Origin: Rhizobium sp. SSA_523
GTDB lineage: Bacteria > Pseudomonadota > Alphaproteobacteria > Rhizobiales > Rhizobiaceae
Assembly: GCF_030435705.1 (NCBI RefSeq)
Contig: NZ_CP129380.1
Coordinates: forward strand, 124,001-188,000
Direction of reading: 5' to 3'
DNA: 64,000 nt
The translations under genes were made by a program, and so were the position numbers. This document shows, piece by piece, positions 59,600 to 64,000 of the stretch (the stretch's first letter is position 1; every line of letters begins with the position of its first letter). The notes beneath the pieces were generated by a model, which searched no databases, was not told the origin of the DNA, and worked only from the letters and a program-made list of their open reading frames with translations.

Positions 59600-62263
59600 T
59601 TATGCGGCCTGTTTCATCGACTTTGCCAGGCGTTTAATCGCCTGCTCCAGCGAGCGCTGTCCGTCACAGTAATCCTGCCAGGCGCTCGTCTTCGCCAGCA
59701 GTGCCGGCACGGTGCGGATGGTGAAGCGTTTCGGATCGAGATCCGTCTTCACCTGGCTCCAGGTGAGCGGCATTGATACGGTGGCGCCGGGACGGGCACG
59801 CGGCGACAGTGGAGCGACGGCAGTCGCCATCCGATCGTTGCGGAGGTAGTCGAGGAAGATCCGGCCGTTGCGCTGGTTCTTGGCCATCTTGATCAGATAA
59901 AGCTCAGGGTTCTCGCGGGCCATCTGCAGGCAGACATCGTGGGCAAACCCTTTTGCCTCCGGCCAGGTCAGCTTCTTCCCCTTCGCTACCGCCAGCGGCG
60001 TGACGACGTGCAGACCCTTGCCACCGGTGGTCTTGCAAAAGCTGACGAGCCCAACTTCCTCCAGCCGGTCACGCATCTCGCGGGCGGCTTCGACCACGGT
60101 GGAGAAGGGGACGTCCGGACCGGGATCAAGGTCGAAGACGAGGCGACCGGGCACTTCCGGTTGGCCGGGTTCGCAATTCCAGGGATGCAGCTCGACGCCG
60201 CCGATCTGGGCGATGGCGGCGAGGCCCTCAACCCGATCGATCTGCAGATAGGGTTTCTTGTCGCCGAACACTTTCACCAGTTCGAGCAAGTTCGATGTTC
60301 CTGGCATCGCATGCCGCTGGAAGAATTGCTCGCCGCCAATGCCATCCGGCGTTCGGATGATCGAGCATGGCCGCCCCTTGATATGGTCGATCAGCCATGG
60401 ACCGACGGCTTCATGATAGCGGGCCAGATCTTCCTTGGTAACCGGCTCTCCGTCATTGGCGTCCGGCCAGAGGGGCTTGTCCGGGCTGGAGATCATCACG
60501 CCCATCACCTCGGCCTTGGCGTTCTTGCCGCGCGCCGGCCTTGATGGCTTTGTCGCGGCCGGCGTCGGGGTGTCGGTTCTTGCCGGCGATGCCGGATTTT
60601 CCGCCTCGACTTCGGCCGCCGGCTTGTCCTCGCGCAATCCCTTGAAGGCCGCCTGACGCACCAACCCATCCGCTGTCCAACCGGCGAACTCAATCTCCGC
60701 GACCAGTTCCGGCTTCACCCAGACGACGTTGGGATCGTTTTTCGGCGCCCCAATCCCCGTAAACGGGGACTTGGCCGTTTCCAGCGCGCGCAGTTTGGGA
60801 AGCAGCACACCGACCTTACCAGCGCCGTAGCCCGTGCCGACACGGCCGACATAGACAAAATGGCTGCCGCGGTTGACGCCGACCAGCAACGAGCGGAACT
60901 TGCCGTTGGTCGTGGCATAGGCACCGATGACGACTTCATGGCCGGCGCGGCATTTGGACTTCGCCCAGGTCTCGGTGCGGCCCGATTGATAAGGGGCGTC
61001 CGCCTGCTTCGAGACGATACCTTCCAGCGAGAGCTTGCATGCCGACTTCAGGACGGCGTCGCCACCGGTCTCGAAATGCTCGACGAAACGCAGGCGTGGA
61101 TCCTCGCCGGCATCATCCAGTAATTTCTGCAGCCGTTCCTTCCGCTCGGTCAGCGGCAGTTGCCGCAGGTCTTCATCGCCCTGAAACAGCAGGTCGAAAG
61201 CAAAGTAGACCAGCGCGTCGGTCTTTCCTTCGGAGAGAGCCGCCTGAAGTGCGGCGAAGTCCGGGGCACCGTTTTCGTCGAGGGCGCAGATCTCGCCGTC
61301 GATCATGGCATCCGGCAGGTTTGCAAACGATGTCGCGATCGCTGGATATTTTGCCGTCCAGTCCAAGCCCTTTCTGGTCTTGAGCGTCACCTCGCCGTTT
61401 TCGATGCGGGCCTGGATGCGATAGCCGTCGAACTTGATCTCGTGGATCCAGCCGTCGGTCGAGGGCGGCCGTTCCAGCGTTGCGCACAGCTGCGGGGCGA
61501 TGAAGTCGGGCATTGCGGACTTCGTTGGCTTGGCAGCTTTGGCTGGGCCTGATTTCCCTTTCGTTTTGGTTTCGGCTTTGCGTTCGTCCGCAGCAAGGCC
61601 GTGGTTGCTGTCCCAGACGGCATCCGCCTGAACGTCGCCGCTCTGGGCCATAAACGGCTTCGGCTTCCGGCCCTTGCCGGCGGCGATCGCCTCCATGGTT
61701 CGACCGGAGGCGACCGACGTTGCGTTGTCCTCGAGGACAGCCGCGCCATTTTCCTCGACCGAGAAATCGTCGTGATGCTTGATCAGCAGCCAATTGGTCC
61801 GCTTGCCGCCGTCACGGTCGTTGCGCATCCGCACCAGCACGAAGCTACCATGCAGCCGCTCGCCTTCCAGGGTGAATTTGAAATCGCCTTTGGCGAGAGC
61901 CTGCTCCGGCGTCTTGCTGCCTTCGGGCTCCCAGTAGCCGCGGTCCCAGAGCATCACCGTGCCGCCGCCATACTGTCCCTTCGGGATAGTGCCCTCGAAA
62001 TCACCGTAGTCGAGCGGGTGGTCCTCGACCTCGACGGCCAACCGCTTGTCGTGCGGATCGAGCGAAGGCCCCTTCGTCACCGCCCACGACTTGAAGACAC
62101 CATCGAGTTCGAGCCGCAAATCATAATGCAGCCGCGTGGCATCGTGTTTCTGGATGACGAAGCGCCTGCGGTTCGATGGCTTCAGCTTCGCTGCGCCGCT
62201 CGGCTCCTGCGTCTTCTGAAAATCGCGCTTTTGCTTGTATGTCGAGAGCTTGTCGTTGGCCAT
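59600..62263 (-). CDS. ligD: multifunctional DNA ligase D (PE-ligase-polymerase)
   Basis: 887 residues from the ATG at 62261-62263 ([16 protein letters not shown]). The N-terminal phosphoesterase has [11 protein letters not shown] (His40, Asp41, His46) and [19 protein letters not shown]. The ligase core has EIKFDGYRI with adenylation Lys277, then [19 protein letters not shown]. The C-terminal primase-polymerase (about 590-887) has [13 protein letters not shown] (metal Asps), [14 protein letters not shown] and [15 protein letters not shown]. It processes and seals ends recruited by Ku. Length and order are those of a complete LigD. Confidence 0.96.
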
Positions 62264-62480
62264 GGCAGTCCCCGGTACAAATCCGCCTCCTGTCACGTCC
62301 GGTTGACACAGTACGCGACTCAAGAGGCAAGAGGCCCCAGATTGTCGTTTTGTTCCATGGAGTTGGCCAAGGAGCGCGTTCGACTCTGAATGACTGACCG
62401 GGCCTCGACGGGAGTGATATGCGCTCTTGGCATAACTGCGGTGCATCAAAGTCTATTTAATAGGCGGCTCTAACGCGTAT

Positions 62481-62648
62481 GATGTGTCTATCGAAGCGAT
62501 GCACCTCCTCCCGCGTCGGTTCGATAGGCAGACGTCCTACTCCTCCTCCCAAGGGCGTTTGCGGGAACAGCAACACTCGTCCTCCCAGTTGCTGTTCGGT
62601 TATTTTCGGAAAGCCTGCCGCACCTCCTCCCGCGGCAGGCTTTTTCGT
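62481..62648 (+). ncRNA. anti-Shine-Dalgarno sRNA with four CCTCCTCCC hairpins
   Basis: Four consecutive stem-loops, each with a C-rich anti-ribosome-site loop. H1: 62488-62527, stem CTATCGAA/TTCGATAG, loop ACCTCCTCCC. H2: 62528-62562, 11-bp stem with two G-U pairs, loop ACTCCTCCTCCCA. H3: 62565-62597, 10-bp perfect stem, loop ACTCGTCCTCCCA. H4: 62613-62640, 9-bp stem, loop ACCTCCTCCC, then T5 (terminator). Loops of this type resemble alphaproteobacterial anti-SD sRNAs (αr14, CcsR-type), where the loop pairs with ribosome sites of target mRNAs. The 5' end is inferred. Confidence 0.85.
62613..62645 (+). terminator. Rho-independent terminator of the sRNA
   Basis: Perfect stem GCCTGCCGC (62613-62621) / GCGGCAGGC (62632-62640) followed by TTTTTCGTTT. 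No protein gene precedes it on this strand, which supports an independent sRNA transcript. Confidence 0.85.
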
Positions 62649-62831
62649 TTGGGCCGCTATCAAGCCGCGGCATGTTTCAGGTCCTTGTGCAAAACGCGGA
62701 AAAAAATGAGGCGGTGGAGTCACTTGGCTCCCGCAGCCTAGGCTCCTGATTCGTTTCATCATTTCGCCCGCAGCGCTTTAGCGGAGCCTAAATAAGCTCG
62801 ATAAGACCGGCTTGACTCCTTCACGGATACG

Positions 62832-62846
62832 GAACAAAAGAAGAAC
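62832..62846. promoter_or_regulatory. SOS box (LexA site) before imuA
   Basis: GAACAAAAGAAGAAC: two GAAC repeats separated by seven bases. Read on the other strand this is GTTC-N7-GTTC, the known alphaproteobacterial LexA box. It is 62 bases upstream of the imuA ATG. Confidence 0.85.
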
Positions 62847-62907
62847 ACCAACAATTTTCCGGGGACATGAAGTCCCGTGCAACGCGAGCTGAGGAGGTCC
62901 GTGAACG

Positions 62908-63666
62908 ATGTCGCGCGCCCATAATCCTCGGGTCATCGAGGAGCTGAGAGACCGCATCGCCTACCTGGAGGGCAGTGCGGCGAAGAAAGCCATTGTGCTG
63001 CCCTTCGGCGTTCGCGAGATGGACGAGCGATTGCCTGGCGGTGGGCTATCATATGGCGCTCTTCACGAGGTCGCCGGCGGCGGTTCTGGCACTGTGGACG
63101 GCGCGGCGGCCGCGTTGTTCGCCGCCGGCATTGCCGCGCGCTCGAAAGGCAAGGTGCTCTGGTGCCTGACGAGACCTGACCTGTTTTTCCCCGCCATCGC
63201 CCAGGCCGGCCTACATCCCGACCGCGTGATCTACTGCGAAGGCGACAAGGAGGAGGATGTGCTGGCTTCCATGGAAGAAGGGCTTTCCTTCGGCGGACTG
63301 GCGGCCGTGGTCGGGGAGCTGGTGCGATTGCCGATGGTGGCATCCCGGCGGCTGCAGTTGGCTGCCGAAAAGACAGGAACCATGGGGCTCGTTGTCCGCA
63401 GGTGGCGGCGGCAGACGGAAGCGTCGGACTTCGGCAATCCGACGGCCTCGACGACACGGTGGAGGGTGAGCGTGCTTCCGTCGGAGGAACTGCCAGTGGC
63501 AGGGGTCGGCCGTGCTCGATGGCTGTTGGAATTGATGCGCGTGAAAGCAGGCGAGTGTGCTGAGTTTGAAATAGGAGCCTGTGATGCCAAGGGTCGTGTG
63601 TGTCTACTTCCCCACTCTGTCAACAGACCGGATACGGCGACATGGAGGGGGAGCCGTGCCAGCTGA
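62908..63666 (+). CDS. imuA: ImuA-type RecA-like mutasome protein
   Basis: 252 residues. IEELRDRIAYLEGSAAKKAI then LPFGVREMDERLPGGGLSYG and ALHEVAGGGSGTVDGAAAAL match the RecA-like N-domain of ImuA/SulA-related proteins. Further on, LFFPAIAQAGLHPDRVIYCE and the ending TASTTRWRVSVLPSEELPVA fit ImuA. GAGGAGG precedes the ATG. It recruits the translesion polymerases ImuB and DnaE2 and is under SOS control by the upstream LexA box. The last 83 bases overlap imuB. Confidence 0.93.
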   Translation: MSRAHNPRVIEELRDRIAYLEGSAAKKAIVLPFGVREMDERLPGGGLSYGALHEVAGGGSGTVDGAAAALFAAGIAARSKGKVLWCLTRPDLFFPAIAQAGLHPDRVIYCEGDKEEDVLASMEEGLSFGGLAAVVGELVRLPMVASRRLQLAAEKTGTMGLVVRRWRRQTEASDFGNPTASTTRWRVSVLPSEELPVAGVGRARWLLELMRVKAGECAEFEIGACDAKGRVCLLPHSVNRPDTATWRGSRAS

Positions 63667-64000
63667 TCAGCCGCTCGTCGTCATTTCAAAATCGGGCTCG
63701 AAGCGCTGGATCTCGGCGGCGGATACCGCCGCCCGCAAACTCGGCCTCAAGCTCGGCATGCCGGCGAGCAAAGCCCAAGCCATCGTCGCCAATCTAACGA
63801 TGATCGATGCCGATCCTGCCGCCGACGCCGCTGCCCTTGAGCGCCTCGCGCTGTGGGCGCTGCGGCAATACAGCCCTGTCGTTGCCGTCGACGGCACTGA
63901 CGGGATCGTCATGGACACGGAAGGCGCCGATCACCTTCAGGGTGGCGAACATCTGCTGATCTCGGGGTTGGTCAACGGCTTGCGAGCACGGGGCCTTACC
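63584..64000 (+). CDS. imuB: Y-family DNA polymerase-like ImuB, N-terminal part
   Basis: Runs off the right edge; 139 codons seen. RVVCVYFPTLSTDRIRR is the ImuB palm start (the D in YFPxLxTDR), then PLVVISKSGSKRWISAADTA, ARKLGLKLGMPASKAQAIVA, and a second block ALWALRQYSPVVAVDGTDGI. ImuB lacks polymerase catalytic acidic residues in known cases and bridges ImuA with DnaE2 and the beta clamp. AGGAG precedes the ATG at 63584, which overlaps imuA by 83 bases. Confidence 0.9.
   Translation, partial: MPRVVCVYFPTLSTDRIRRHGGGAVPADQPLVVISKSGSKRWISAADTAARKLGLKLGMPASKAQAIVANLTMIDADPAADAAALERLALWALRQYSPVVAVDGTDGIVMDTEGADHLQGGEHLLISGLVNGLRARGLT

Follow-up and report, generated by a model that had tools for sequence, protein, structure and literature searches.

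The 64,000-nucleotide window that we analysed, from Rhizobium sp. SSA_523, carries between ligD and an imuA-like gene what looks, from its sequence, like a non-coding small RNA of the alpha-r14 sort, with anti-Shine-Dalgarno (aSD) motifs in its loops and a terminator hairpin. It is a further copy of an already known aSD sRNA family, whose four-hairpin form has been known since 2011, and it is placed in a repair-gene neighbourhood. Predicted features of this RNA are four covarying hairpins, conserved aSD loops, a terminator and an exact LsrB-type operator upstream. Taking these features together with the analogy to studied relatives, we consider it probable that this is a four-hairpin (SmelA099-type) sRNA of the alpha-r14/cuckoo group, which LsrB activates and which represses the translation of many targets through aSD loops that can stand in for one another.

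Folding of the + strand gave four consecutive hairpins between 62488 and 62647 (Table 1), and the predicted transcript length is about 155-160 nt. Each loop contains an aSD core, which is exactly CCTCCTCCC in three loops and CGTCCTCCC in loop 3. The fold energy of the segment 62470-62660 corresponds to z = -6.8, and none of 200 shuffled sequences was equally stable. When 62481-62648 was shuffled 1000 times with dinucleotides preserved, TCCTCCC fell into one hairpin loop in eight shuffles and into none in the other 992, against the four observed; on the + strand of the whole 64 kb this motif occurs six times, four of them inside the RNA. The fold and the shuffles confirm the original prediction of four hairpins with aSD-like loops, a wording that covers the one-letter change in loop 3, and its description of loops 1 and 4 as identical (10 bases) and of loops 2 and 3 as 13 bases long with like ends was also correct. 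Its reading of H4 as a terminator was borne out, the hairpin ending in five U, as was the claim that the RNA is non-coding: no likely coding gene overlaps 62488-62647, and a coding explanation by the frames that run mechanically across the RNA was rejected because comparison with relatives shows gaps in the stems whose lengths are not divisible by three.

Table 1. Features in and around the four-hairpin RNA (positions in the window).
Feature	Position	Strand	Sequence or loop	Remarks
ligD (DNA ligase D), divergent neighbour	59600-62263	-		start at 62263; frame runs mechanically to 62449
Predicted LsrB/VtlR-type operator	62430-62442	+	GCATAACTGCGGT	exact consensus match by pattern search
Probable -10 element	62478-62483	+	TATGAT	from sequence and alignment
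Hairpin H1	62488-62527	+	loop ACCTCCTCCC at 62503-62512	beyond the Rfam alpha-r14 model
Hairpin H2	62528-62562	+	loop ACTCCTCCTCCCA at 62539-62551	
Hairpin H3	62565-62597	+	loop ACTCGTCCTCCCA at 62575-62587	motif with one change
Hairpin H4	62607-62647	+	loop ACCTCCTCCC at 62622-62631	U-tract TTTTT at 62641-62645; predicted intrinsic terminator
SOS-box-like GAAC-N7-GAAC	62832-62846	+	GAACAAAAGAAGAAC	between the RNA and imuA
imuA ribosome-binding site	62891-62898	+	GAGGAGGT	complementary to loops 1 and 4 over 8 bases
imuA-like gene, downstream neighbour	62908-63666	+		54 bits, below the NCBIfam cut-off of 150

Conservation of the structure was assessed on an alignment of 28 four-hairpin loci, the window's included and places without a fetched locus left out. 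Standard pairs on the window structure filled 86.1% of the cells, against 36.5-49.1% when one side was slid by 1-3 columns, and both-sided changes were found in 23 of the 50 pairs against a shuffled mean of 12.6. Further pair types were barely better than in the shuffles (52 against 47.9, a value reached by 28 of 500 shuffles). The weak points lie in H1, which lacks its three outermost pairs and two of its inner ones in 14-24 of the 28 loci, and in H2, where three pairs fail in 12-15. The stem of H4 is nearly invariant, 10 of its 15 pairs never varying, and it therefore tells little about structure. The original prediction hinged on the loops being conserved in homologous loci, and 106 of the 112 loops in this alignment read exactly CCTCCTCCC; the six deviants are loop 3 of the window, one loop in L012 and two each in L024 and L031. 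As judged from these sequences the presence of a fourth hairpin, H1, in addition to the three of alpha-r14 is not a local accident. The stem of H4 is almost unchanged also in a chromosomal three-hairpin paralogue (L003), a degree of conservation that exceeds pairing needs; it may perhaps reflect gene conversion, or termination in both directions where dinB, SOS-peptidase or ligD genes converge on the RNA.

The covariance comparison with the Rfam alpha-r14 family that the original prediction had proposed was run on positions 60000-64000, and RF02344 matched 62522-62647 on the + strand, corresponding to H2-H4, with 103 bits against a cut-off of 58.8. Two traits of alpha-r14, three hairpins with CCUCCUCCC unpaired in the loops and an LsrB site upstream, are found in H2-H4 (with one change in H3) and in the operator listed in Table 1. 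Common to the RNA and the cuckoo/SmelA099 group are two to four hairpins, a shared loop motif and unconserved stems, the H4 stem being the exception. Membership in CcsR1 (RF02791) was rejected since H1-H2 scored 37.6 bits, below the cut-off of 65.3. The host genome has four alpha-r14 places above the cut-off, of which the other three carry three loops each.

Four-hairpin members of this group are already in the literature. SmelA075 and SmelA099, described in 2011 with three and four hairpins and CCUCCUCCC in each loop, occur in several copies per genome and have a presumed stress role (PMC3927594); the hairpin is present in two, three or four copies according to section 3.6.1 of that paper, and PMC4504443 describes the cuckoo motif as having 2-4 hairpins. 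In view of these two reports, the statement in the original prediction that known aSD sRNAs have fewer such loops was wrong. Compared with the SmelA099 model (Reinkensmeier 2011) of the cuckoo family, the RNA has likewise four hairpins, an aSD motif in every loop, variable stems and relatives at many places with differing neighbours, and no difference was shown, SmelA099 having been compared by its description and not by its sequence. Two S. meliloti pSymA records (H65 and H71) match at 83% over 94% of the query. NfeR1 of Sinorhizobium is a member of the Rfam alpha-r14 family, whose sRNAs are Hfq-independent and silence mRNAs via aSD loops. The three aSD motifs of NfeR1 silence ntrB and are mutually redundant, and NfeR1 acts by ordinary base-pairing at single mRNAs (PMC10746234). 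The likeness of the window RNA to alpha-r14 and NfeR1 lies in the match of H2-H4, the CCUCCUCCC loops, the LsrB-type operator and the terminator hairpin; it differs in having an extra 5' hairpin and an LsrB motif that is abcR1-like and not the TGCA-N6-GCAT of NfeR1. AbcR1/2 (alpha-r15) share the aSD motifs, and AbcR1 the LsrB control (PMC8844928), but they belong to another Rfam family, have two aSD motifs in three stem loops (PMC7143759) and are Hfq-bound (PMC8844928).

The predicted operator matches the LsrB consensus GCAT-N3-TG-N3-T (PMC8844928). An exact box was found before 24 of 31 four-hairpin loci of the genus, before all 26 of the 26 family loci (the host locus is in both of these sets) and before 12 of the 20 loci with three hairpins, against a background of 239 in 25,478 windows of 100 nt (0.94%, the loci themselves included). 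All loci without an exact box in the genus four-hairpin and three-hairpin sets have a site one letter off. The exact boxes start 74-84 nt before the first TCCTCCC, a spacing kept in relatives. The motif TGCA-N6-GCAT, which the NfeR1 promoter is described as carrying from -72 to -60 (PMC10746234), is absent from the window promoter; it precedes 3 of the 31 four-hairpin loci of the genus, 5 of the 20 three-hairpin loci and 7 of the 26 family loci. By eye there is no recognisable -35 element before the RNA; the alpha-r14 pattern is CTTAGAC-N17-CTATAT, and the -10-like element of the window is TATGAT. With the spacing of abcR1, transcription would start near 62490, about seven bases after TATGAT.

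The host genome also holds a LysR gene with the same box, an alpha-r15/AbcR 61 nt further and then an ArsR-like frame (ArsR by eye), an lsrB-abcR-like layout from which the LysR gene would be LsrB. An LsrB-type site before the RNA would point to redox or nitrogen stress rather than to DNA damage. Exact SOS-type sequences (GAAC-N7-GAAC or GTTC-N7-GTTC) occur at four places in the window, all of them elsewhere than before the RNA, and SOS control of the RNA was rejected for this reason. The GAAC-N7-GAAC before imuA is what we take to be an SOS-box-like motif.

The neighbours of the RNA were surveyed by searching about 15-18 kb round each locus with eleven proteins, in 31 four-hairpin loci of the genus (host included), 20 three-hairpin loci (two from the host) and, as a control, 20 round-number coordinates picked arbitrarily in some of these genomes. 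A DUF1127 gene was found near 17 of the 31 four-hairpin RNAs and near none of the 20 three-hairpin loci or the 20 arbitrary places, its distance to the first loop core being 161-218 bp in all 17 loci; no DUF1127 match was obtained in 18 kb surrounding the window copy. The CIN1 locus of Rhodobacter sphaeroides, where CcsR1-4 accompany ccaF1, has aSD hairpins too, and it resembles these 17 loci, yet not the window copy, in the adjoining DUF1127 gene. There ccaF1 and the CcsR RNAs form one operon (PMC10253847), whereas in 16 of the 17 loci a terminator-like hairpin, recognised by eye, separates DUF1127 from the operator (in L105 none is visible), so that the RNA is, from sequence, probably transcribed on its own. 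Examples of the DUF1127 gene about 160-220 bp before the first loop are L095, L100, L107 and the plasmids L043-L047, and in several plasmids a DnaQ-like 3'-5' exonuclease precedes it. Another neighbour was observed in L011, where positions 1817-1924 match Atu_At1 (RF02496, 107 bits) about 155 nt beyond the 5' end of the RNA, between the RNA and ligD.

In the window, the imuA-like gene is followed by homologues of imuB and dnaE2, and the original prediction had linked the RNA to a repair island. Counting fragments, genes of the repair set (ligD, Ku, imuA, imuB, dnaE2, dinB and SOS peptidase) were present at 8 of 31 four-hairpin loci, 0 of 20 three-hairpin loci and 3 of 20 arbitrary places (2 of 20 without an SOS-peptidase fragment). 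In all eight loci the nearest one (dinB, ligD or SOS peptidase) lies within 500 bp of the RNA, and two of the eight rest on fragments adjoining it (dinB in L095, a small ligD in L119). The excess over arbitrary places is not significant (p = 0.28 against 2/20, p = 0.49 against 3/20) and that over three-hairpin loci is weak (p = 0.016, or p = 0.033 for 7/30 without the window), and all these p values are too favourable because the loci are related. Among five top plasmid matches chosen by hand, records H1 and H3 have the order ligD-RNA-imuA-imuB-dnaE2. Record H2 has transposases and imuB near the RNA, record H7 the order exonuclease-DUF1127-RNA, and record H12 the same with dinB and imuA-imuB-dnaE2. 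A wider spread of 24 plasmid records was chosen by hand among 60 listed, 5 of them unannotated; in the 19 annotated loci DUF1127 directly precedes the RNA in 8, a repair gene lies within 1 kb in 6, and 5 have neither, one of which (H90) matches just 61% of the query. Within 1.5 kb flanks of the first 30 loci the order ligD-RNA-imuA was not found to be conserved across the genus: imuA adjoins the RNA only in the host genome, and the start of ligD lies on its promoter side only in the host genome and in G022. The tie to repair genes is therefore partial, seen in the full order of two other records and in the contrast with three-hairpin loci, but not set apart from arbitrary places and not accompanied by an SOS box before the RNA.

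These counts bear on the idea of a dedicated regulator of the neighbours, by which the RNA would silence imuA-imuB-dnaE2 and restrain plasmid-borne mutagenesis outside SOS. The eight-base complementarity of the imuA ribosome-binding site to loops 1 and 4 is in keeping with it, as are the recurrence of GAGGAGGT in L042, the version in L041 being one G longer, and the repair genes close to 8 of the 31 loci and in 6 of the 19 plasmids. Strong ribosome sites are however common: AAAGGAGGT precedes an imuA that is not close to the RNA (L158), and the imuA near the RNA in L054, L057 and L100 has GAAGGGAGC, which led us to reject imuA as a special target. Since, moreover, a repair gene adjoins the RNA at only a minority of loci and the excess over arbitrary places is not significant, we regard such a dedicated role as unlikely. 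In L041, which comes from Rhizobium sp. T136, imuA is spread over two reading frames, with transposases in the vicinity.

The four-hairpin form is widespread in the host's genus. A DNA search of 40 genomes, the host's included, gave matches in 24, all of this genus, and none in the 16 genomes from other families. A copy including hairpin 1 is present in 22 of the 24; G009 and G021 gave three-hairpin matches, and the best match in G179, another genome of the genus, is three-looped (L086). With a four-hairpin covariance model we obtained matches, most of them with lower scores, in 179 of 199 genomes sampled from the family and in 49 of 297 sampled from the order, a sample that also contains family members and the host. 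The best match reached about 107 bits or more in 26 of the 199 family genomes (host included), and in each of these 26 the best locus (L059-L084) has four loops. As a count of four-loop genomes this figure is a lower bound, as the border at 107 bits does not cleanly separate four from three hairpins: of four loci taken from just below it three are three-looped and L088 (93 bits) is four-looped. Among 72,556 plasmid records 554 match, nearly all bearing Rhizobiaceae genus names, and 453 have one place covering at least 80% of the 171-base query, a count made by coverage and not by loop number. We infer that plasmid carriage spreads this stress repressor among rhizobial replicons, and this spread, with the recurrent neighbours, is worth noting. 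A bolder proposal, which we hold to be improbable, sees the LsrB-controlled RNA as the regulator within a mobile stress module on plasmids. Its travelling companions would be DUF1127, the DnaQ-like exonuclease and repair genes of the mutagenic or end-joining kind (dinB, ligD/Ku, SOS peptidase, imuA-imuB-dnaE2), whose translation it would set against the redox state, and loop number would be a tunable dose that reaches nine in Pleomorphomonas.

For the multi-target repressor that we favour, NfeR1 suggests how it might work. When redox or nitrogen conditions become stressful, LsrB, a LysR-type regulator, would activate the RNA's sigma-70 promoter. Each loop could then pair over 7-9 bases with Shine-Dalgarno regions, those of many mRNAs being suitable, and would thereby block 30S binding, after which the mRNA would decay. 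The four loops would do the same job, so that one molecule would offer up to four docking sites. Rhizobia-type aSD RNAs like this one probably block translation. The pattern GAGGAGG-N5-9-ATG occurs at 154 places in the host genome against 15 for the reversed pattern, in a raw count with some overlap, which indicates that many mRNAs could pair by seven bases. In S. meliloti one of six NfeR1 loci is reliably detected on northern blots (PMC7143759), and by analogy the window copy may be weakly expressed. By our counts the four-hairpin form is frequent, its structure is maintained and an LsrB-type site precedes it, which makes its regulation directly testable.

The repetition of one motif, the 154 places with a seven-base match and the arrays of up to nine loops found elsewhere would also suit a sponge that titrates other RNAs, proteins or even ribosomes, in which four loops raise valency; NfeR1, with the same loops, base-pairs ordinarily at single mRNAs (PMC10746234), and we consider titration very unlikely. 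Just as unlikely is a silent, unexpressed paralogue with H4 kept mainly as a terminator, which the near-invariance of H4 and the recurrence of its stem in the paralogue L003 would fit but the covariation of H1-H3 and the retention of loops and operator would not.

Longer aSD arrays were found with a spacing pattern built from L168, L169 and L090 and run over genome contigs. This search, which is not a census, led to the identification of 11 loci, eight nine-looped, one six-looped and two four-looped. The nine-loop arrays belong to seven Pleomorphomonas and one Oryzibacter, span about 320-330 nt and have all nine motifs in predicted hairpin loops. An LsrB box is absent from the 140 nt examined at the nine- and six-loop loci and present at both four-loop loci. 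Among the literature matches listed we found no nine-hairpin arrays and no counts that link the four-hairpin form to repair genes, either of which the 2015 cuckoo paper may contain, nothing on point for Pleomorphomonas and aSD motifs, and no joint occurrence of SmelA099 and imuA. The nine-loop arrays provide a natural loop-number series for testing what repetition of aSD loops buys.

The nine-hairpin loci (L183, L184, L185, L186, L187, L189, L191 and L193, and also L169:880-1270 and L168) exceed the 2-4 hairpins given for the cuckoo motif (PMC4504443), and their last hairpin is terminator-like. The sequence after it in L189 and L183 is GTTTGCATTTT, which by eye makes a weak terminator, and among the eight nine-loop loci only that of Oryzibacter has five T in a row. 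The six-hairpin array, L188, comes from a MAG labelled Rhodobacteraceae bacterium UBA6796. Nine loops also occur in L165 (G487:C13, near 369076-369480), there as three head-to-tail copies of a three-hairpin aSD unit whose inner terminators look degenerate by eye. Three-hairpin aSD units in tandem were likewise seen in L166, L167 and L172 (genus g89, same family), with 78-100 nt from the last core of one unit to the first core of the next.
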